Shown: positions 1 through 15,113 of the stretch, piece by piece
Layout of the letters: every line of letters starts with the position of its first letter
Position numbering within the stretch: the first letter of the stretch is position 1
Assembly (NCBI RefSeq): GCF_009689585.1
Contig: NZ_AP018694.1
Location: 4,517,501 to 4,581,500, forward strand
Direction of reading: 5' to 3'
DNA length: 64,000 nt
From: Aquipluma nitroreducens
Lineage (GTDB): Bacteria; Bacteroidota; Bacteroidia; Bacteroidales; Prolixibacteraceae
Notes under the pieces: model-generated
Database searches by the model: none
The model's input: the letters and a program-made list of their open reading frames with translations, nothing else
Told to the model about the DNA's origin: nothing
Made by a program: the position numbers and the translations under genes

Positions 1-722
1 CAGCTTCGAAAGGATACCGGCTCATACTGGTAATGCCCGACTCAATGAGCATCGAAAGGCGAAATATACTGAAAGCGCTTGGTGCAGAAATTGTTCTTAG
101 CTCCGGCCATGAAGGAATGAGCGGCGCTATTCGCAAGGCAACCGAATTAAAAAATACGTTTCCAAAGGTCTTTATTCCGCAGCAATTCAGCAATTATGCG
201 AATCCGGCCATCCACCGGCGAACAACCGCTCTGGAAATTTGGAATGATACTGACGGACTCGTTGATATTTTCATTGCCGGTGTCGGGACAGGAGGAACCA
301 TCACCGGAGTTGCTGAAATATTAAAGGAAAAAAATCCTGAAATAAAGGTCGTAGCAGTTGAACCGGCTGACTCTCCTGTACTTTCAGGTGGTAGGTTTGG
401 ACCACATAAAATACAAGGTATCGGGGCTGGATTTATTCCGGGAGTACTTAATGTCAATGTGTTCGATGAAATTTTCAGGGTAAAAAACGAAGAAGCTTAT
501 GAAATAAGTAACGAACTTGCCCGAACCGAAGGTTTACTGGCGGGAGTCTCTTCCGGAGCAGCTGTTTATGCAGCCATTCAGGTTGCAAAACGCCCTGAAA
601 ATAAAGATAAACGTATCGTAGTTATACTTCCCGATACAGGAGAACGATACCTTTCTACCGGGCTTTATCAGGTTGAGAAAAAAGGTGAAGTTCAGAAGCC
701 CGTTTTTGATAAAACAATGTGA
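1..722 (+). CDS. cysK: Cysteine synthase A, 3' part
   Basis: PLP-dependent O-acetylserine sulfhydrylase, which makes cysteine from O-acetylserine and sulfide in the cytoplasm. The reading frame is open from the first bases of the window (codons begin at base 3), so the N-terminal part with the PLP lysine lies upstream and is missing. Visible family motifs are [10 protein letters not shown], the PLP-phosphate loop [10 protein letters not shown], and the C-terminal GVSSGAA and [13 protein letters not shown]. It leads a same-strand cluster of sulfur-carrier genes with short gaps, so its sulfide donor may be the carrier thiocarboxylate encoded next rather than free sulfide. That donor role is inference; the family assignment is secure. 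Confidence 0.93.
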
Positions 723-749
723 TTTGATAATTTAAAATAACCGTAAAAA

Positions 750-962
750 ATGGCAAAGATTCAGGTAAATGGTAATGAGCAGGAGGTGGAAGTACCTATC
801 TCTTTGATCGAATTGATTAAGAAAAACGATGTGGCACAGCCCGAAATGGTTTCGATACAGGTAAACGGCGAATTTTTACCGCGAGAAAATTTCAACTCGA
901 CACTTATATACGATGGCGATGAAGTTGATTTTCTTTATTTCATGGGCGGAGGTTCAAATTAA
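750..962 (+). CDS. ThiS/MoaD-like sulfur carrier protein with capped C terminus
   Basis: Small (70 aa) beta-grasp ubiquitin-like protein that would carry sulfur as a C-terminal thiocarboxylate. The sequence has the ThiS/MoaD pattern: an N-terminal strand with NGNEQEVE, a central VNGEFLPRE, and the C-terminal DGDEVDFLYFMGGG. Active carriers end in Gly-Gly. This one ends Gly66-Gly67-Gly68-Ser69-Asn70, so two or three residues must be removed before activation. The JAMM peptidase encoded four genes downstream (2615-3010) is the obvious candidate. The E1-like activating enzyme follows after 73 bp. The arrangement resembles CysO/Mec and HcyS/HcyD systems that feed sulfur to cysteine or homocysteine synthesis, and the upstream neighbour is cysK. 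Confidence 0.85.
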   Translation: MAKIQVNGNEQEVEVPISLIELIKKNDVAQPEMVSIQVNGEFLPRENFNSTLIYDGDEVDFLYFMGGGSN

Positions 963-976
963 TTGACGATTTAAAC

Positions 977-1005
977 ATTTACTATTTACCGTTAAAATAG
1001 TAAAT
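977..1005. repeat. Perfect 11-bp inverted repeat between carrier and E1 genes
   Basis: ATTTACTATTT (977-987) and AAATAGTAAAT (995-1005) form a perfect hairpin with a 7-nt loop. Half of the motif recurs about 15 nt downstream (AAATAGTAAAT near 1016-1026). There is no T-tract suited to termination, so it may set mRNA stability or the carrier-to-E1 ratio, or it may be an operator. Confidence 0.5.
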
Positions 1006-1035
1006 GGCAGATTATTTAAATAGTAAATAAACATC

Positions 1036-1845
1036 ATGGATTTTACTGAAGATCAAATACAACGATACAGCCGTCACATTATCCTTCAGGATGTAGGTGT
1101 GGAAGGACAGGAAAGAATTAATAAGGGGAAGGTATTGATTGTGGGTGCCGGAGGTTTGGGGGCTCCGGTTGCCCTTTACCTTGCTGCAGCTGGCGTTGGC
1201 ACCATTGGCATCATCGATGGCGACGTGGTCGATTTGTCGAACCTGCAACGCCAGGTCATTCATTTCACGGCTGATGTGAACAAAGCTAAAGTACTTTCGG
1301 CAAAAGAGAAAATTAATCAGCTTAATCCTGATGTAAAGGTGATTCCCTACTACGATCTTTTAACAGCAAGCAATGCTTCGGACATCATCAAAGATTACGA
1401 TTTTGTGGTGGATGGAACCGATAATTTCCCGGTGAAATTCCTGATCAACGATGCTTGCGTTCAGGCCGGAAAACCATTCTCGCACGGAGGAATATTACGT
1501 TTTGAGGGGCAAACCATTACCGTTTTACCAGGAACCGCCTGTTATCGTTGTGTTTTCCATTCACCACCGCCACCCAATGCCGTACCCACCTGTTCGCAGG
1601 CTGGCGTTTTAGGGGCCATTGCCGGTATGCTGGGAACCATTCAGGCTGCTGAAGTACTTAAATACCTGACCGGAGTTGGCGATTTGCTGACCAACCGGTT
1701 GCTTACTTTCAATGCCAAAACAATGGAGTTCCGCACTATTAAAGTGAAACACAATCGTCGATGTGCAGTTTGTGGCGACCATCCAACCATCACAGAACTG
1801 ATTGATTACGAACAGGCAACCTGTGAAATAAAAAGCAAACATTAA
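1036..1845 (+). CDS. MoeB/ThiF-family E1-like carrier-activating enzyme
   Basis: Adenylates the C terminus of the sulfur carrier and passes it on for thiocarboxylation. The 269-aa protein has the Rossmann ATP-binding loop VGAGGLGAP (about residues 36-44), the DGDVVDLSNLQRQ motif, two zinc CxxC pairs (Cys169/Cys172 and Cys243/Cys246), and the conserved active-site Cys186 in PTCSQAG. The C-terminal rhodanese domain found in MoeBR-type proteins is absent, so sulfur must come from elsewhere, plausibly the DsrE/TusA proteins encoded next. The gene lies 73 bp after the carrier gene and 3 bp before the DsrE-like gene. A role in cysteine or homocysteine sulfuration is inferred from context; a thiamin or molybdopterin role is less likely here. 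Confidence 0.88.
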   Translation: MDFTEDQIQRYSRHIILQDVGVEGQERINKGKVLIVGAGGLGAPVALYLAAAGVGTIGIIDGDVVDLSNLQRQVIHFTADVNKAKVLSAKEKINQLNPDVKVIPYYDLLTASNASDIIKDYDFVVDGTDNFPVKFLINDACVQAGKPFSHGGILRFEGQTITVLPGTACYRCVFHSPPPPNAVPTCSQAGVLGAIAGMLGTIQAAEVLKYLTGVGDLLTNRLLTFNAKTMEFRTIKVKHNRRCAVCGDHPTITELIDYEQATCEIKSKH

Positions 1846-1848
1846 ATT

Positions 1849-2361
1849 ATGGAAATCCCGGAATTAACATCAGAAAATCAGTCGAAAGCGCAAAAGAAGC
1901 TTTCTCTCATTAGTTTCAGCGGAGACTTTGACAAGCTGGTGGCGACTTTCACTTTGGCAACCGGCGCTGCGGCAGTGGGCTACGAAGTGAATATTTTCTT
2001 TACTTTCTGGGGACTCGATGCCATAAAGAAGAAACAAGGACGTGCTTTTGTCGGAAAAGGTTTTCTGGGTAAGTTGTTTGGTTTTTTCATGGGTGGTTTA
2101 CGCAGTGCACCTGTCAGCCGGTTGAACTTTCTGGGGCTTAGTCCAAAGATATTCCGCTACCTGATGCGAAAGAAAAACGTTGCTACTCTTGAAGAACTGG
2201 TTGAAGCCGCCAAGGCCTTGGAAATAAATTTATACGCCTGCGAAATGGCCATGCACATCCTTGGACTTGAAAAGAGCGACTTTATTCATGAAGTAAAAGG
2301 AGTGCTTGGCGTTGCTACTTTCCTCGAATTATCTGAAGGTGGAAGAACGATATTCATTTAA
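1849..2361 (+). CDS. DsrE/DsrF-like family protein
   Basis: Putative sulfur-relay protein of 170 aa. The alternating segment FSGDFDKLVATFTLATGAAA, followed by EVNIFFTFWG and the conserved Cys in LYACEMAM, is typical of DsrE/DsrF/DrsH-like proteins, where that Cys can hold a persulfide. The middle (KGFLGKLFGFFMGGLRSAPV) is hydrophobic and glycine-rich and could contact the membrane. It starts 3 bp after the E1-like gene and precedes a TusA-like gene, and DsrE plus TusA is a common sulfur-transfer pairing. Its place between sulfite/sulfide production and the carrier is inference. Confidence 0.8.
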   Translation: MEIPELTSENQSKAQKKLSLISFSGDFDKLVATFTLATGAAAVGYEVNIFFTFWGLDAIKKKQGRAFVGKGFLGKLFGFFMGGLRSAPVSRLNFLGLSPKIFRYLMRKKNVATLEELVEAAKALEINLYACEMAMHILGLEKSDFIHEVKGVLGVATFLELSEGGRTIFI

Positions 2362-2378
2362 TTTAAAATCAATTCAAT

Positions 2379-2603
2379 ATGGTTACTTTCAAATTAGATA
2401 TTACACGTGAGCATTGCCCGATGACTTTTGTTAAAACCAAGATCCAACTGTCAAAACTAAATGCTGGTGATGTATTGGAAGTTTTACTCACTGAAGGCGA
2501 GCCGCTCGAAAATGTTCCGAAAAGTTCACGCGAACAAGGATTTAATGTGTTGGAGGTATCGCATGTTGAAGGCGTGGTACATAAAGTCCTCATTCAGAAA
2601 TAA
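2379..2603 (+). CDS. TusA-like sulfurtransferase
   Basis: Small (74 aa) sulfur-transfer protein with the two-layer TusA fold. The signature CPM appears near the N terminus (DITREHCPMTFVKTK), and that Cys is the expected persulfide-carrying residue. The remaining body (GDVLEVLLTEGEPLENVPKS) matches the family. It lies between the DsrE-like gene and the JAMM peptidase gene with gaps of only 11-17 bp, so it is almost certainly in the same operon. It probably passes sulfane sulfur towards the MoeB-like enzyme and its carrier. Confidence 0.88.
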   Translation: MVTFKLDITREHCPMTFVKTKIQLSKLNAGDVLEVLLTEGEPLENVPKSSREQGFNVLEVSHVEGVVHKVLIQK

Positions 2604-2614
2604 CATTTTAGGCC

Positions 2615-3010
2615 ATGCTCCAAATACCGCAACAAATTATTAATGATCTTTTTGACCACGCCAAAACGGGCTTGCCTGAAGAAGTTTGTGGTTATCTGGC
2701 TGGTACCAATAGCCAAGTTGTCAAACATTTCAGGCTAACAAACATTGACCACAGCAACGAGCATTTTTCGTTTGATCCGAAAGAGCAGTTTCAGGTGGTG
2801 CGTGAAGCACGGAAATTGGGTTTGGAGATTTTGGCCAATTACCACAGTCATCCCGAAACACCAGCCCGACCTTCGCAGGAAGATATCCGGCTGGCTTTCG
2901 ATCCGAATATCAGTTATGTGATTGTTTCACTGGCTGCAAAATTACCAGATGTGAAATCTTTCAGGATAAGGGGTGGTGAGGTTGAAAAAGAAGAAATACA
3001 GATTATATAG
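2615..3010 (+). CDS. JAMM/Mov34 zinc metallopeptidase, carrier-trimming type
   Basis: A 131-aa single-domain JAMM peptidase. The motif is complete: acidic residue in PEEVCGYLAG (Glu22/Glu23), His77-Ser-His79, and Asp90 ten residues later in HSHPETPARPSQED. Related Mec (Mycobacterium), QbsD (Pseudomonas) and HcyD (Wolinella) enzymes either remove residues past the Gly-Gly of a sulfur carrier or release the amino acid built on it. Here the carrier gene at 750-962 ends in GGGSN, which gives this enzyme an obvious substrate. It starts 11 bp after tusA-like and ends 11 bp before the HemD-like gene. Confidence 0.88.
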   Translation: MLQIPQQIINDLFDHAKTGLPEEVCGYLAGTNSQVVKHFRLTNIDHSNEHFSFDPKEQFQVVREARKLGLEILANYHSHPETPARPSQEDIRLAFDPNISYVIVSLAAKLPDVKSFRIRGGEVEKEEIQII

Positions 3011-3021
3011 AAAATAAAATC

Positions 3022-3381
3022 ATGGAAAAGCCAACCTTTTTTATAGGCGAAGAATTGTCGGATAAAACGCGACAATGGCTTCACATGCAACAGATTCAAT
3101 ACATTGAACAGCCTTTACAAAAGATTGAAAATATGATAACGGGAGCTTTCGATGGCTATTTATTTTTCAGTCCTTTAGGTATTAACATGTTTAAATCATC
3201 CGGAAACTTTCCACTTCCAAACTCGTTGGTTTTTGCTAACCAAAACACCACTGCACGTGCGGCCTGGACACACTTTACAAACAAAGTACATACCTCTCCC
3301 GATTCGGAAGAACTGTCGTTTGTGCAATATTCGATTTTCCGATGGATGAAGGAGAATCATTATAAAGGGGAACATATCTAA
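3022..3381 (+). CDS. Half-length HemD-like protein, copy 1
   Basis: A 119-aa protein resembling only the C-terminal half of uroporphyrinogen-III synthase: DGYLFFSPLGINMF, then SLVFANQNTTARAAW, then VHTSPDSEELSFV, which matches the family pattern FFSPSGV / IGxTTAxA / SPxPTxExL. Full HemD is about 250 aa, so the other lobe is absent and catalysis cannot be assumed. About 96 of 119 residues match a second copy at 12975-13334. It sits 7 bp before cobA, consistent with a role linked to siroheme for sulfite reduction, but the real function is unknown. Confidence 0.65.
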   Translation: MEKPTFFIGEELSDKTRQWLHMQQIQYIEQPLQKIENMITGAFDGYLFFSPLGINMFKSSGNFPLPNSLVFANQNTTARAAWTHFTNKVHTSPDSEELSFVQYSIFRWMKENHYKGEHI

Positions 3382-3388
3382 AATCTTT

Positions 3389-4138
3389 ATGCACTCGTTA
3401 ATCTCCATTGTTGGCGCCGGGCCGGGCGACCCTGAATTATTAACAGTCAAAGCGCTGAAACGAATTCAGGAAGCCGACATCATCCTGCATGATGCCTTGG
3501 TGAGCGATGAAATTTTAAATCTTGCCAAACCTGATGTAGAACGGGTTTATGTGGGCAAAATTTATCAGGACGGCCAAAATCAAACCGGAAGACAGGAATG
3601 GATCAACCAATTGCTGATTGATTTGTCAGAAAAAGGACAAAGGGTTGTCCGGCTGAAATCGGGCGATCCGATGATTTTTGGCCGGGGAGCTGAAGAAATC
3701 AGGTTTTGCATCGAGAACAAGTTGAACTATGAAGTTATTCCCGGCGTTACGTCTGCACTTGCAGCGGCTTCGTTATACGGGATACCGCTCACCGAACGGG
3801 GCAAAAACAGCATGGTACTATTTGGAACCGGGCATTACAGCGAAGGGGAATTCCTGGATATAGACACTTTTGTTTCTGTTTTGAAATCCGGCTCTCCAAT
3901 CATTATTTATATGGGCTTGAACAAACTGATCCGATTATCCACCCGATTAATCGAACAATCCATTTCAGGAGATACCAGCGTTCAGATTTTAAGCAAAGTT
4001 TCACAACCCGATGCTTATTTCATTGAAGGCACTCTGGAAAATATTGCACAGGTGATTGAAAGCAAAAAACCGAATATGCCAGCATTGGTAATTATTGGCA
4101 AAAATGTAGTGAAATTGAATGTGGCGGGCAGAGAATAA
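3389..4138 (+). CDS. cobA: Uroporphyrinogen-III C-methyltransferase (SUMT)
   Basis: SAM-dependent methylation of uroporphyrinogen III to precorrin-2, the entry step to siroheme and cobalamin. The 249-aa protein has the Gly-rich start VGAGPGDPELLTVKA, HDALVS, LKSGDPMIFGRGAEE, and VIPGVTSALAAA, all standard SUMT motifs. It is the single-domain form, without the CysG dehydrogenase/chelatase fusion. It is last in the forward run that begins with cysK. The siroheme made would serve sulfite reductase, linking it to the sulfide chemistry of the operon. Confidence 0.93.
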   Translation: MHSLISIVGAGPGDPELLTVKALKRIQEADIILHDALVSDEILNLAKPDVERVYVGKIYQDGQNQTGRQEWINQLLIDLSEKGQRVVRLKSGDPMIFGRGAEEIRFCIENKLNYEVIPGVTSALAAASLYGIPLTERGKNSMVLFGTGHYSEGEFLDIDTFVSVLKSGSPIIIYMGLNKLIRLSTRLIEQSISGDTSVQILSKVSQPDAYFIEGTLENIAQVIESKKPNMPALVIIGKNVVKLNVAGRE

Positions 4139-6339: not shown

Positions 6340-6409
6340 TACCATAAAATAGTTATAAAATCTACCTATTCCGTGGTATTGAATAATCAAACAGTGATGC
6401 TCATTTTTG
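6340..6409 (+). promoter_or_regulatory. Tandem TACC-N8-GGTA operator/promoter of the susCD unit
   Basis: Dyad A (6340-6355) is TACC-N8-GTTA, one mismatch. Dyad B (6363-6378) is TACCTATTCCGTGGTA. Their starts are 23 bp apart. The -7 TTTG ends at 6409, exactly 31 nt after dyad B. The same geometry recurs at 12883-12952 and 13359-13428. The Cys-rich leader ORF starts 23 nt after TTTG. The second dyad falls near position -41 to -43 relative to the likely start site, a class II activator position. Confidence 0.75.
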
Positions 6410-6432: not shown

Positions 6433-6546
6433 ATGAAAGTATCCAACAAACACAATACTTACCGAATATCAACTTCATTATTCATGCTGAATAGTTGCTG
6501 TTGCTGCTGTCCATTTACTTCCCGAATGCGAATGTGCTTCAGCTAA
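6433..6546 (+). CDS. Cys-rich leader peptide upstream of susC
   Basis: A 37-codon ORF starting just after the promoter. It contains five consecutive Cys codons (6496-6510, TGC TGT TGC TGC TGT) followed by PFTSRMRMCFS. A second leader with the same design lies before metY (13454-13582), and 21 nt around the SRMRMC codons (6518-6538) are identical in the two. It ends 163 nt before susC. Ribosome stalling at the Cys run under cysteine shortage could control downstream expression. A weak hairpin (AAGTG/CACTT followed by Ts, about 6545-6579) lies after it, but no strong terminator is visible. Confidence 0.7.
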   Translation: MKVSNKHNTYRISTSLFMLNSCCCCCPFTSRMRMCFS

Positions 6547-6709: not shown

Positions 6710-9700
6710 ATGAAAAATCAATTTAAATTTATTATTCTTTTTTTCTGTGTGCTGCTGTCGCTTAGCAGTATTGCCCAGGAAATACAGCTCAAAGGAGTTG
6801 TGCGTTCCAATGATGATCACTCTCCTCTGGTTGGAGCAAGTATTGTCAAGAAGGGAACAACTTCAGGAGTGGTAACTGATGCCGATGGTCAGTTCAATTT
6901 GAAGTTGAATGCAGGGAATGTCCTTGTAGTTTCATTTATTGGCTTTGACTCCAAATCATTTGTTGTTCATGATGATTCGTTTTTAGAAATCGAATTGGGA
7001 GAGAACCTCAACCAGTTAAACGAAGTTGTTGTAACTGCGCTCGGAATCAACAAAGAAAAAAAGTCGCTGGGATATTCAGTTCAGGAGATTAAATCTGAAA
7101 CAATTACAGCAGTGCCCGAAGCGAACCTGGTTAATTCACTTTCAGGCAAAATTGCCGGAGTGCAGGTTACCAACAGCCAGGGGAACCTTGGATCATCGAG
7201 AATTATTATTCGTGGCGAAACTTCAATCTCAGGCAATAACCAACCACTTTTTATTGTGGATGGCGTTCCGGTCGACAATTCCCAATTCACCACATCTGAT
7301 GCCTCACGCGATTTTGCCAATGCGATCTCTGATATCAGTAGTGAAGACATTGAAAGTATTAGCGTATTGAAAGGGCCGAATGCAGCTGCGCTTTATGGTT
7401 CAAGGGCTGCCAGCGGTGTTATCCTGATCAAAACCAAAACCGGTAAAGGTCAAAAGAAGTTGGGCGTGAATGTCTATTCAAAAAACACGTTCGAAAGTGT
7501 TTTAACCCTTCCAAGCTATCAAAACGGTTACGGACAAGGTTCTGGTGGAACTTTTTCGTATGTTGATGGAAAAGGCGGTGGTGTAAATGACGGCGTTGAC
7601 GAAAGTTGGGGCCCGAAACTTGATGGCCGACTGATTCCTCAATTCTTTTCGAACGGTGTTGCAGTGCCATGGGTTGCCCATCCAAATAATGTGCGCGACT
7701 TCTTTGAAACCGGTCACACACTTAGTAACGGAGTTTCGATTTCCGGAGCTGATAACAAATTTGATTTCCGCTTCTCGTATAACAATACCAGCCAAACCGG
7801 AACTTTACCGAACACCGATTTGGGAAAAAACACTTTCGGGATCAACAGCAGTTATAAAATTTTACCTGAGCTGGTACTGAGTACCAGCGCCAATTACATC
7901 AACACCGACGCAGGTAATTTACCCGGTGTTTTTGGACGAAGGGCTACAAGTTCAATGCTTCAGTTTGCTTGGTTTGGCCGTCAGGTCGACGTTAACCAAC
8001 TGAAAAATTACCGGGATGCCAATGGTAATTTGGTGAACTGGAACAATAGCTATTACAGCAATCTCTTTTTCATTGCCAATGAGAATACGGTTTCGCAACG
8101 CCGTGACCGAATCTTTGGAAATGTAAATCTGAATTACAAGTTCCTGAAAGATTTCACGGCAAACTTCCGTATCGGAAACGATTATTACAACGACCGTCGT
8201 AAAATTAAAATCGCTTACGGAACGAATGGTACGCCTTACGGATCTTATCAGGAAATTGGATATACCGTGAACGAACGGAATATTGAGTTTACACTGAATT
8301 ACAATAAAAAAATAACTACTGACTTTACAGTCGATGTTCTTGGTGGCAGCAACCTTTTGTCGAAATACTATGAGGAAAATAATCAGAGTGCGCCAAAGCT
8401 TGCAGTGAGAGATGTTTATACGCTGGCCAATTCGCGCGATCCTCTTGTCTCATCAAGCTATTACAGCAAACAAAAGAAAAACAGTGTTTTTGCATCAGGG
8501 CAAGCCAATTTCAGAGACTATGCGTTCTTAAACTTAACCGCACGCAACGACTGGTCATCAACTTTACCCGAAGGCAACAACTCCTATTTTTATCCTTCAG
8601 TCAATGCCAGTGTGTTGGTTTCAAAATTTCTCAACATCGAAAGCAGTCAGCTTTCATTCCTGAAAATCAGAGGTGGCTGGTCGAAGGTGGGGAAAGATTC
8701 GAATCCTTACCAGCTTATCGACACTTATCCGTTTAATGCGCCTTTCGGCAGCAATCCGCAGTTGACAGTTACAAACGCATCGCTGAATGCCAATTTGAAA
8801 CCTGAAACCACAACTTCATCAGAAATTGGAGCTGAAATTGGGTTGTTCAATAACAATGTCCGTGTAGATTTGAGCTATTACAACACCAATAGTTACGATC
8901 AGATATTGAATGTTGATGTCAGCCCGTCAACCGGATATGTTTCAAAATTATTAAACGCCGGAAAAATCAACAACCAGGGGTTCGAAGTTCAGTTAAGCTT
9001 CTCGCCGGTAAAGATTTCAAACGGGTTGACATGGGATGTGGTGGCTAACTTCTCGACCAACAAAAGTGAAGTTCTTGAACTCGACAAAGAAGGATTGCTT
9101 ACAGCCTATAGAATTGCACAATCGGGTAGCCTTTCAGTTCTGGCCGCCATTGGCCAACCTTACGGATCGTTGTTCGGAACCGCTTACAAACGGAATGACA
9201 AAGGCGAAATTCTGGTCAAAGCAAATGGCGCCCCTGACACTGATCCAAACAACAAATACTTTGGTTCTTTTCAGCCCGATTGGATTGCAGGGATTACGAA
9301 TACTTTCACGTATAAAAACTTCAGCCTGAGTTTTCTGATTGATGCTAAAATTGGTGGTTCAATCTATAACGGAACACAATCTACCGGTACTTATACCGGC
9401 GTCTTAGCCGAAACTTTACGCGGAAGAGATGAAGAAAATGGTGGTTTAGCTTATTATTATCCAAACAATGTAAAAACTCAACTTCCGGTTCAGCTTGCCT
9501 CACACACAACGGCAGCTCCAAATAGCGAAGTTGTTTACCACGACGGGGTTATTTTTGATGGCGTAAAAGCTGACGGAACCCAAAATACTACAATCCTTCC
9601 GGCCCAGTCGTACTGGAAAACTTTCAGGACGATTAATGAGTCGAGTGTTTTTGACGCATCGTTTGTGAAATTCCGGGAAATAAGCCTGGGTTACAACCTG

Positions 9701-9898
9701 CCTTCAAAATGGATAAAAGCCATTGGATTACAGTCGGCAAATGTAGCTTTGCTTGGCCGCGATCTTTGGATTATTCACAAGAATGCACCGCACATCGATC
9801 CCGAAACGGCGCTGAATACAGGAAATGGACAGGGCTTGGAAAGCCTTCAATTGCCATCGACCCGAAGCTATGGGTTTAGTTTGAACCTCAATTTCTAA
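6710..9898 (+). CDS. SusC/RagA-family TonB-dependent outer-membrane transporter
   Basis: A 1062-aa TonB-linked outer-membrane barrel. A signal peptide ends near SSIAQ. A carboxypeptidase-like regulatory domain follows (LKGVVRSNDDHSPLVGASIV, about 27-110). The plug contains IRGETSISGNNQPLFIVDGV and ISVLKGPNAAALYGSRAASG, and the C terminus ends in the aromatic pattern SYGFSLNLNF. It partners the SusD protein 18 bp downstream. The substrate is not readable from the sequence. Because a Cys-rich leader and the sulfur-type promoter control it, it probably imports a sulfur-containing nutrient rather than a glycan (inference). Confidence 0.95.
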   Translation: MKNQFKFIILFFCVLLSLSSIAQEIQLKGVVRSNDDHSPLVGASIVKKGTTSGVVTDADGQFNLKLNAGNVLVVSFIGFDSKSFVVHDDSFLEIELGENLNQLNEVVVTALGINKEKKSLGYSVQEIKSETITAVPEANLVNSLSGKIAGVQVTNSQGNLGSSRIIIRGETSISGNNQPLFIVDGVPVDNSQFTTSDASRDFANAISDISSEDIESISVLKGPNAAALYGSRAASGVILIKTKTGKGQKKLGVNVYSKNTFESVLTLPSYQNGYGQGSGGTFSYVDGKGGGVNDGVDESWGPKLDGRLIPQFFSNGVAVPWVAHPNNVRDFFETGHTLSNGVSISGADNKFDFRFSYNNTSQTGTLPNTDLGKNTFGINSSYKILPELVLSTSANYINTDAGNLPGVFGRRATSSMLQFAWFGRQVDVNQLKNYRDANGNLVNWNNSYYSNLFFIANENTVSQRRDRIFGNVNLNYKFLKDFTANFRIGNDYYNDRRKIKIAYGTNGTPYGSYQEIGYTVNERNIEFTLNYNKKITTDFTVDVLGGSNLLSKYYEENNQSAPKLAVRDVYTLANSRDPLVSSSYYSKQKKNSVFASGQANFRDYAFLNLTARNDWSSTLPEGNNSYFYPSVNASVLVSKFLNIESSQLSFLKIRGGWSKVGKDSNPYQLIDTYPFNAPFGSNPQLTVTNASLNANLKPETTTSSEIGAEIGLFNNNVRVDLSYYNTNSYDQILNVDVSPSTGYVSKLLNAGKINNQGFEVQLSFSPVKISNGLTWDVVANFSTNKSEVLELDKEGLLTAYRIAQSGSLSVLAAIGQPYGSLFGTAYKRNDKGEILVKANGAPDTDPNNKYFGSFQPDWIAGITNTFTYKNFSLSFLIDAKIGGSIYNGTQSTGTYTGVLAETLRGRDEENGGLAYYYPNNVKTQLPVQLASHTTAAPNSEVVYHDGVIFDGVKADGTQNTTILPAQSYWKTFRTINESSVFDASFVKFREISLGYNLPSKWIKAIGLQSANVALLGRDLWIIHKNAPHIDPETALNTGNGQGLESLQLPSTRSYGFSLNLNF

Positions 9899-12882: not shown

Positions 12883-12952
12883 TACCTATTTTGTGGTATA
12901 TAAATTACCCGGAAAAGGGTATTTGATGTAACCATCATCTACCACATCTTTG
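12883..12952 (+). promoter_or_regulatory. Tandem TACC-N8-GGTA operator/promoter of HemD-like copy 2
   Basis: Dyads at 12883-12898 and 12906-12921, both perfect TACC-N8-GGTA, have starts 23 bp apart. TTTG at 12949-12952 ends 31 nt after the second dyad, and a -33-like TTTG directly follows that dyad. The block 12881-12909 (29 nt) is identical to 13357-13385. The gene starts 22 nt after the -7 TTTG, with no leader ORF in between. Confidence 0.75.
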
Positions 12953-12974: not shown

Positions 12975-13334
12975 ATGAAACATCCAGTATTTTTCATAGG
13001 AGAAGAATTGTCGGATAAAACACGTCAATGGCTTCACCGGCAACAGATTCAATATATTGAACAACCATTGAATAAGATTGAAGAATTGGCCAGCCGGGCT
13101 TTTGATGGTTACCTGTTCTTTAGTCCAAAAGGAATATCCCGGTTTAAATCATCTGGAAATTTTCCACATCCACTTTCGTTGGTTTTTGCGAATGAAAATT
13201 CAACAGCTCGTGCTGCCTGGAGTCAATTCACCAATAAAGTACATACTTCACCCGATTCTGAAGAACTGTCGTTTGTTCAATACGCCATTTATCGCTGGAT
13301 GAAGGAGAATAGTTATGTAGGAGAACATATCTGA
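12975..13334 (+). CDS. Half-length HemD-like protein, copy 2
   Basis: A 119-aa paralogue of the protein at 3022-3381, with about 23 differences concentrated in residues 34-70 and at the N terminus. It keeps the same HemD C-lobe motifs (DGYLFFSPKGISRF, SLVFANENSTARAAW, VHTSPDSEELSFV). Unlike copy 1 it is a single-gene unit with its own tandem-dyad promoter. It is followed directly by the metY promoter. Conservation of both copies argues for a real, sulfur-linked job rather than HemD debris. That job is unknown. Confidence 0.65.
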   Translation: MKHPVFFIGEELSDKTRQWLHRQQIQYIEQPLNKIEELASRAFDGYLFFSPKGISRFKSSGNFPHPLSLVFANENSTARAAWSQFTNKVHTSPDSEELSFVQYAIYRWMKENSYVGEHI

Positions 13335-13358: not shown

Positions 13359-13428
13359 TACCTATTTTGTGGTATATAAATTACCTGAAACAAGGTATTT
13401 CATACAATCAATTTCATGACAATCTTTG
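13359..13428 (+). promoter_or_regulatory. Tandem TACC-N8-GGTA operator/promoter of metY
   Basis: Dyads at 13359-13374 and 13382-13397, both perfect, have starts 23 bp apart. TTTG at 13425-13428 ends 31 nt after the second dyad, as in the two other copies. The Cys-rich leader ORF begins 25 nt downstream. Confidence 0.75.
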
Positions 13429-13453
13429 CAATGTCATTGAACAAAACAAAAAA

Positions 13454-13582
13454 ATGAAAGCAACACAACAAATATCTAATCCATATTTCCTCCGGATAAA
13501 CGGTGCTGGCAATCTTACTGCCGGATCATGTTGTTGTTGCCAGATTTACCCTTCGGCTTCCCGAATGCGAATGTGCTGCTAA
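13454..13582 (+). CDS. Cys-rich leader peptide upstream of metY
   Basis: A 42-codon ORF with four consecutive Cys codons (13529-13540) and the ending SASRMRMCC. The ATG at 13454 is chosen because an in-frame start further upstream would lie inside the operator. The 21-nt block 13557-13577 is identical to 6518-6538 in the susC leader. The stop codon lies in the loop of a small hairpin (GTGCT/AGCAC). A second weak hairpin with Ts follows at 13633-13652. It ends 145 nt before metY. Cysteine-responsive attenuation is the simplest reading. Confidence 0.72.
   Translation: MKATQQISNPYFLRINGAGNLTAGSCCCCQIYPSASRMRMCC

Positions 13583-13664: not shown

Positions 13665-15113
<1,449 letters not shown>

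Follow-up and report, generated by a model that had tools for sequence, protein, structure and literature searches.

In the trp, his and thr attenuators, control codons within a leader peptide precede genes of the same pathway, and a hairpin lies in the leader. Cysteine-responsive attenuators were reportedly treated by Canestrari et al. in 2020, with the mycobacterial ORFs said to be leaderless. In Actinobacteria, polycysteine leader ORFs are described ahead of sulfur genes; in the part of the source that treats them, no conserved intrinsic terminator is given and Rho is suggested (PMC1262725). The uORFC-8-2 motif before cysS of Rhodobacterales carries tandem Cys codons, for which the passage on this motif proposes ribosome-mediated attenuation (PMC8632094). 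Leader-peptide attenuation before amino-acid operons is reported for Flavobacterium in a passage that does not mention cysteine (PMC9723704), and a passage on Bacteroides notes sORFs reminiscent of leader peptides (PMC7366714). Among titles and abstracts, we found no report of poly-Cys leaders in Bacteroidota.

The window considered here, i.e., the whole 64,000-nucleotide stretch that was analysed (C1:4517501-4581500 of the genome), contains two short ORFs, one before susC and one before metY, which by their anatomy plausibly belong to the poly-Cys attenuator class. They share with the actinobacterial leaders, as far as PMC1262725 describes these, a short Cys-run ORF before sulfur genes and the lack of a conserved intrinsic terminator; they differ in occurring in Bacteroidota, in preceding genes for a SusC receptor, a porin and MetY, in having the run 4-8 codons ahead of a conserved CGA-AUG tail, apparently in place of a position near the stop, and in the additional presence of a common operator, an upstream hairpin and an apparently short 5' UTR in place of a leaderless start. 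With uORFC-8-2 they have in common tandem Cys codons in a uORF and proposed attenuation, whereas that motif, as presented in its passage of PMC8632094, has a U-run terminator, two Cys codons, as a rule the 14th and 15th, and no described RMRMC tail, and belongs to another phylum and another gene. As in the trp, his and thr attenuators, there are pathway control codons (a Cys run in 16 of the 17 homologous leaders collected) and a leader hairpin; the differences are that no conserved terminator/antiterminator pair was found among these 17 leaders, that uptake genes would also be controlled, and that a codon-fixed tail is added. The SAM-I riboswitch (S-box, RF00162) was not found at the window leaders, where an operator stands in front instead, although elsewhere in Bacteroidota a similar uORF lies directly behind it, before metY, metX or SusC. 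We hold it to be probable that a translated leader peptide gauges cysteine, probably as Cys-tRNA, and in this way governs the downstream sulfur gene; most safely put, these would be translated leaders reading sulfur amino acids ahead of sulfur genes. The features on which the argument draws are:

6363..6379, + strand: operator-like palindrome TACC-N8-GGTAT, upstream of the susC leader
6433..6546, + strand: susC leader ORF (first leader), 37 codons, Cys5, ending SRMRMCFS
6477..6495, + strand: predicted hairpin immediately preceding the Cys run of the susC leader (RNAalifold; pair counts, four susC leaders)
6496..6510, + strand: five Cys codons of the susC leader, TGCTGTTGCTGCTGT
6518..6538, + strand: 21 nt, susC leader copy, identical to 13557-13577; core CGAATGCGAATGTG at 6523-6536
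6710..9898, + strand: SusC/RagA TonB-linked outer-membrane protein behind the first leader (Pfam, NCBIfam TIGR04056)
12883..12922, + strand: pair of operator-like palindromes ahead of the 119-aa gene (12975-13334)
13359..13398, + strand: two operator-like palindromes upstream of the metY leader
13420..13429, + strand: CAATCTTTGC, -7-like element, assigned by eye
13454..13582, + strand: metY leader ORF, the leader at issue, upstream of metY; 42 codons, Cys4, ending SRMRMCC
13506..13524, + strand: predicted hairpin immediately preceding the Cys run of the metY leader (RNAalifold; pair counts, eight metY leaders)
13529..13540, + strand: four Cys codons of the metY leader, TGTTGTTGTTGC
13557..13577, + strand: 21 nt, metY leader copy; core CGA-ATG-CGA-ATG-TG at 13562-13575, in frame
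13728..15113, + strand: metY, O-acetylhomoserine sulfhydrylase (Pfam, NCBIfam TIGR01326)

The metY leader translates as MKATQQISNPYFLRINGAGNLTAGSCCCCQIYPSASRMRMCC followed by a stop codon, and the susC leader as MKVSNKHNTYRISTSLFMLNSCCCCCPFTSRMRMCFS followed by a stop codon. The original prediction, which rested on the letters of the window, had given this reading of ORF 13454-13582, the 21 nucleotides identical in the two leaders (CTTCCCGAATGCGAATGTGCT), and distances of 163 nt (susC) and 145 nt (metY) from leader stop to gene ATG; all of these hold, the identity having been confirmed by position. The last Cys of the metY leader core lies two codons ahead of the stop. Across the whole genome of 5,712,279 bases, CCCGNATGCGNATGTGC occurs exactly at two places, both of them the window leaders, and allowing up to two mismatches adds three two-mismatch places, against one in a reversed control, so that chance is excluded as the source of the match. 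The pattern TYCCGAATGYG falls at 11 places in the same genome, only the two known leaders resembling leader ORFs, and thus the tail does not mark amino-acid leaders in general in this genome. At gathering scores, Rfam gave no match at the window leaders (one tRNA was its sole match in the window) and RF00162 none anywhere in the window; NCBIfam profiles searched against four leader peptides gave no hit up to E 0.1.

Behind the leaders stand genes for SusC/SusD-like proteins, a thioredoxin-like protein and MetY (Pfam, NCBIfam), followed after metY by an O/P-type porin and ABC transporter genes that include one for a PstS-like binding protein. Upstream, window positions 33-4138 encode a PALP-family PLP enzyme, ThiF, a DsrE-like protein, JAB and a tetrapyrrole methylase, a run that looks like a sulfur-carrier and siroheme/cysteine cluster. 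In the window the palindrome TACC-N8-GGTAT matches seven times counted by strand, against a mean of 0.25 from shuffles; the five distinct sites start at 6363, 12883, 12906, 13359 and 13382, and all five are at three promoters, those of susC, the 119-aa gene and metY. A further site, at G000:C1:4513635, precedes a leader-free sulfite reductase gene 3.9 kb outside the window. The 119-aa gene has its own double operator directly ahead of the metY leader; no poly-Cys leader was found before it, and its product has no Pfam or NCBIfam match. Judged by these positions, the operator sites look like marks of a sulfur regulon, with the leader at part of it. A narrower operator, TACCYRNNNNNNGGTATT, was discarded as a regulon marker: it has nine places in the genome against five in a reversed control, namely the three window promoters, one sulfite reductase and five others that have neither a leader nor a gene recognised as sulfur-related. 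Element CAATCTTTGC, which we take from consensus to be a Bacteroidota -7 element, has aligned counterparts (ATCTTTG/ATATTTG) in the eight metY 5' regions, and the position of this -7-like TTTG, some tens of nucleotides before the ATG, suggests a short 5' UTR.

Seventeen distinct homologous leaders were assembled, one given with the finding, eight reached via MetY (including the leader of the finding) and eight via DNA patterns; two of the last eight (susC of G109 and G103) came from a pattern in which the Arg codons were free. Their partner genes, checked with Pfam, are metY (eight), SusC (four), O/P-type porin (Porin_O_P, two) and CGS/CGL-like (Cys_Met_Meta_PP, three), i.e., sulfur or uptake genes throughout, and in 16 of the 17 the operator is found no more than 260 nt ahead of the leader stop, in the remaining one farther up. 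Window-type MetY (83-100% identity) is encoded in 10 of 120 family genomes, with the leader present at eight of the ten. G056 has neither operator nor leader, and G069 lacks the leader but keeps the operator, with a promoter-like stretch immediately at the gene; its locus upstream of metY (L016) is a natural leaderless comparison in which the operators are kept. One contig, JANYLE010000483.1 of Mariniphaga sp., bears both a metY and a SusC leader.

The poly-Cys design, which the original prediction had seen as common to susC and metY, is conserved in other genomes, its elements being kept to different degrees. Of the SRMRMC ending that the original prediction saw as shared design, RMRMC (15/17 leaders) or RMC (2/17, metY of G094 and G091) is retained, while the Ser is not, the residue before it varying over S, F, L, W and D; the eight metY leaders end SRMRMCC, FRMRMCC, FRMRMCS, WRMCF, FRMRMCL, DRMCR, FRMRMCCC and LRMRMCL. 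CGA-AUG repeats number one to three, and two of three CGS leaders carry an extra RMC (RMRMCIRMC, RMRMCMRMC). A Cys run of two to five codons occurs in 16/17 leaders; it is missing in metY_G040 and reduced to CC in the three CGS leaders, where RMRMC is nevertheless kept, so that the tail is more conserved than the run and a pure Cys-run sensor cannot account for every leader. The CGA-AUG block begins 4-8 codons past the run, and in the 17 leaders 39-60 nt separate the start of the run from the end of the stop codon. The near-equal spacing to the gene, by contrast, is not a conserved part of the design: from leader stop to predicted gene ATG the 17 leaders span 71 to 235 nt, the 71-nt value probably reflecting a gene start called too early.

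For CGAATGCGAATGTGY, 140 family genomes gave matches in 12 genomes, one of which, L007 in G066 (a CGA-CGA match), was set aside as a chance match inside a long frame. The Arg-free scan with YYNMGNATGMGNATGTGY in 140 family genomes returned the CGA-CGA leaders, the repeat CCCAGCATGAGCATGTGC and other non-CGA places; none of the repeat copies (a minority of them) and other non-CGA places that were inspected is leader-like. CCCAGCATGAGCATGTGC, which has many copies in several family genomes (L151, L154, L159; 14 in G105), is apparently a repeated or mobile element. Across 393 genomes of the order, the exact tail recurs at two places beyond the window genome: L140 was rejected, having no leader-like ORF, and at L141 a uORF, SRRMRMCRVNRMR, lies between a SAM-I riboswitch and metY.

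The codons separate the two parts of the leader. CGAATG is in frame in 17/17 leaders. In the eight metY leaders, which were found via MetY alone, regardless of codons, Arg before Met is CGA in 14/14 cases and other Arg codons are CGA in 2/9; among comparison ORFs of at least 200 codons (window and L014-L042), the figures are 8/37 for Arg before Met and 16% for all Arg. The claim that the RMRMC nucleotides are constrained beyond their amino acids is thus borne out. Over all 17 leaders, Arg before Met is 34 times CGA and twice CGG, both CGG lying outside the tail. Cys codons, on the other hand, are free at the wobble base, both in the eight metY leaders (TGT 24, TGC 14) and for Cys right after Met in the 17 (TGC 11, TGT 8), and the fixed CGA beside this free wobble shows a constraint bounded by codons. 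By its codons, the run behaves as would be expected of a tRNA-charging sensor (identity kept, wobble free), and the tail, its third base frozen at Arg, behaves unlike it.

ARAGORN, run on stretches covering the genome's 54 tRNA matches (one stretch yielded no tRNA), found one tRNA-Cys (GCA) for both Cys codons and the Arg anticodons TCT, ACG, CCT and CCG, with no TCG among the tRNAs found; CGA is therefore presumably read by tRNA-Arg ACG. Inefficient I:A wobble decoding is reportedly the subject of a published study. In the passage of PMC10454642 concerned, CGA is said in general to be decoded by the ACG (inosine) tRNA, and consecutive CGA codons left lacZ translation in B. subtilis unimpeded, which weakens a slow-CGA role.

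Just 5' of the Cys codons, RNAalifold places a hairpin in which changes occur on both sides of pairs. In the metY set, 85.7% of cells are paired against 60.8% in shuffles, with 16 two-sided changes against 6.1 and a covariation of 0.786 against 0.300; none of 500 shuffles was as high on any of these three measures, and on the other two of the five measures 10 and 18 of the 500 came as high. When the partner is slid, at most 62.5% of cells remain paired. The four susC leaders have 96.9% of cells paired and two-sided changes at three pairs (4/500 shuffles reached this), and seven metY/CGS leaders 89.8% (1/500) with three such pairs (11/500), the number of pair types not being raised (465/500). 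These controls lean in favour of the hairpin since the helices were derived from the same or overlapping sequences, and its energy test is weak (Fisher p = 0.01; 2/17 leaders below 0.05, 15/17 above). Covariation points to this hairpin, upstream of the Cys run, and not to a fold at the 21-nt block. A hairpin-plus-U search for intrinsic terminators in 32 leaders (the 24 of the pairing test below and eight from other loci) gave scattered hits, none conserved in the 17, among which only G040 has a strong one.

The following scheme would join these elements. Transcription would start behind the TACC-N8-GGTA operator, under a putative regulator. A ribosome would initiate the leader ORF, whose translation the conserved frame points to, cross the hairpin, which may act as a polymerase pause or a translation barrier, and then meet what are usually two to five Cys codons. 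With Cys-tRNA, the presumed signal, in short supply, it would halt on the run, its front edge, given the footprint of a ribosome, near the CGA-AUG block. With enough Cys-tRNA, it would reach CGA-AUG-(CGA-AUG)-UGY just before the stop, where the block may impose a second, slow stop, and then be released. These two ribosome positions would set whether polymerase or translation continues into the susC, metY, porin or CGS-like gene, low cysteine presumably switching it on; Rho-dependent, intrinsic and translational control are all candidates for the switch, much as Rho-dependent or translational control is in the actinobacterial case. We propose that the tail defines the second ribosome position; sensing of Met and an RNA signal are serious rivals. 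In favour of the cysteine-gauging leader, poly-Cys or Met/Cys uORFs outside the family stand behind SAM-I and ahead of metY, metX or SusC, and 0/18 SAM-I loci before metH have one. Several results count against it: two of 10 window-type metY genes (G069, G056) are without the leader, there is no conserved intrinsic terminator, the core pairs with downstream RNA without significant excess, the hairpin energy test is weak, uORFs linked to SAM-I make up a minority, and Met-run leaders have CGC at their second Arg before Met (7/7).

Those Met-run leaders bear on a dual sensor, in which the run would read Cys-tRNA and the AUGs of RMRMC Met-tRNA, either shortage turning on homocysteine/methionine synthesis and sulfur uptake. 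We regard this as a real possibility, though short of an even one. Among 59 ordinary metY upstream regions of the window's own family, a survey covering part of the metY genes (L026, cut by a contig end, was left out, and L391 has only 137 nt), nine have Met-rich leaders: seven end MMMRMLxRMSK (G065, G034, G016, G003, G022, G072, G085; DNA ATGATGATGCGAATGCTTNNNCGCATGAGCAA) and two MTMCMR (G078, G033). That genes of the same family should have such leaders speaks for Met sensing, as do the additional RMC in two CC-only CGS leaders and the mixture of Met and Cys in the SAM-I-linked uORFs (NMCMCCCC, CCMCCCCC, RMCCC). However, metY leaders G094 and G091 have a single RMC, internal AUGs are few, and Met sensing leaves the conserved CGA unexplained. 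The seven MMMRMLxRMSK loci upstream of metY are L373, L376, L379, L380, L387, L029 and L037; at gathering score, Rfam found no family at seven Met-rich-leader loci. In Met-run leaders the first Arg before Met is CGA in 7/7, and L406 has AGG. The 13 examined leaders of other families, among them some (L301, L246) that CGA patterns had first brought up, have CGA 13 times, CGT twice and CGG once as the Arg codon before Met.

The SAM-I-linked uORFs come from other Bacteroidota. From 34 metY loci of public contigs (mostly titled Bacteroidota), eight with an upstream Cys-containing ORF were chosen for Rfam; seven of these, picked in this way, have a SAM-I riboswitch, followed in six by a poly-Cys ORF with its run at the stop codon (CCCCM, CCCCCCI, CCCCCC, CCCCCC, CCCCC, CCCCMCA). 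One further family (31 genomes, 30 loci) has Met/Cys ORFs behind SAM-I and before metY, metX and SusC (two SusC genes were checked by Pfam; metY and metX were named by motif only), several of them with RMC or RMR as CGA-AUG and L281 with CGU. By an automatic criterion, with classes assigned by motif and four duplicate loci dropped, such ORFs occur at 11/59 metY, 1/8 metX, 0/18 metH, 1/7 CGS-like and 5/26 other SAM-I loci; the criterion missed the Cys-rich ORFs of L288 and L279, some of its hits, for instance L211 and L296, seem to be chance matches, and 18 of the 48 metY loci without such an ORF are from one family (f136). SAM-I-linked uORFs are thus a minority. SAM-I with a poly-Cys or Met/Cys uORF between it and metY is seen at L064, L069, L072, L073, L075 and L077, and the same arrangement at L276, L277, L285, L292 and L294; such loci may possibly represent tandem SAM and amino-acid control. 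L246 and L237 are similar SAM-I-linked leaders of another family; one ends FFRM, and the other stops at FF because TAA replaces the CGA of the first.

A second rival holds that CGAAUG(CGAAUG)UG is an RNA or DNA signal (a protein or sRNA site, a polymerase pause, an arm of an alternative fold) that merely lies within the ORF, which we think possible and somewhat doubtful. Nothing in the 5' regions is more conserved than the block: CGAATGCGAATGTG, 14 nt, is the longest invariant run in the four susC regions, and CGAATGTG that in the aligned regions of the eight metY genes. Its repeat number varies, and AUGCGAAUG, common to most Cys-type leaders, recurs in the seven Met-run leaders. Their tail is part of a predicted hairpin without variation: at the seven loci GCGCATG is invariant, as is CATGCGC downstream, and the two would pair around the stop codon, or AUGCG could pair with the same CGCAU, giving two mutually exclusive predicted hairpins. 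The arms of this hairpin never vary and so show no covariation. In L246, CCGAAUGUGAA pairs with downstream UUCACAUUUGG, with one G-U (p = 0.003). On the other side, the block is in frame in every leader, the third base of the Cys after Met is free, the overall pairing excess is not significant and the window leaders have no Rfam match. No good fold was found for the 21 nt, which had been suggested to form one: RNAalifold put no helix on the invariant block in the metY set and, in the susC set, one of four pairs that touches it. In 24 leaders with 300 shuffles each, the core paired with downstream RNA without significant excess (Fisher p = 0.053). Such pairing was rejected as a general rule, being significant in only two of the 24 (metY_G107 and L246, p = 0.003), plus G040 at p = 0.047.

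That the nascent RMRMC chain itself stalls the ribosome we consider improbable. An Arg-X-Arg motif is associated with macrolide stalling. The constancy of the tail, RMRMC or RMC in every leader, would suit an arrest peptide, as would the conserved Arg-Leu-Arg motif of a uORF upstream of hflX, described in one passage of PMC8632094. A peptide effect would not need strict CGA, R-M-R is absent in G094 and G091, and metY and susC leaders have different peptide sequences ahead of the tail; the codon constraint in particular argues against a purely peptide-based stall. That the susC and metY leaders are alike by chance or through a recent duplication is refuted as the whole explanation, since orthologues occur in three genera of the family, the N-termini of the window leaders diverge, the genome has only two copies of the block and G107, its MetY 98% identical, has FRMRMC, although leader copies do spread, as N-terminal halves shared by leaders of different genes (por_G018 and metY_G000; metY and CGS leaders in g16) indicate.

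Returning to the leader that gauges cysteine, we offer as a conjecture, which we would not call likely, that CGA-AUG (often AUG-CGA-AUG) is the signal common to a class of Bacteroidota sulfur leaders, in which an interchangeable run of Cys, Met or both would stand before or beside a fixed tail, which would hold the ribosome at a second, codon-defined position by I:A wobble. In a k-mer enrichment of 78 non-redundant SAM-I loci, the top words were mostly pieces of the aptamer, and the occurrence of CGAATGT in five of these loci, against 0.5 expected, is suggestive only. If the conjecture is true, there would be a two-position ribosome gauge, working either by itself behind an operator or in series with a preceding SAM-I riboswitch, of a kind that to our knowledge is found in no other attenuator.

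Ultimately, these small, delimited codon blocks with frozen Arg codons afford a clean test of codon speed versus peptide versus RNA, and they bear on leader-peptide function in a phylum that mostly does without Shine-Dalgarno initiation. Similar uORFs behind SAM-I in other Bacteroidota imply that one transcript may read SAM as well as cysteine or methionine. The leaders described here would extend cysteine-sensing leader peptides to Bacteroidota and to genes for uptake across the outer membrane (SusC, porin).
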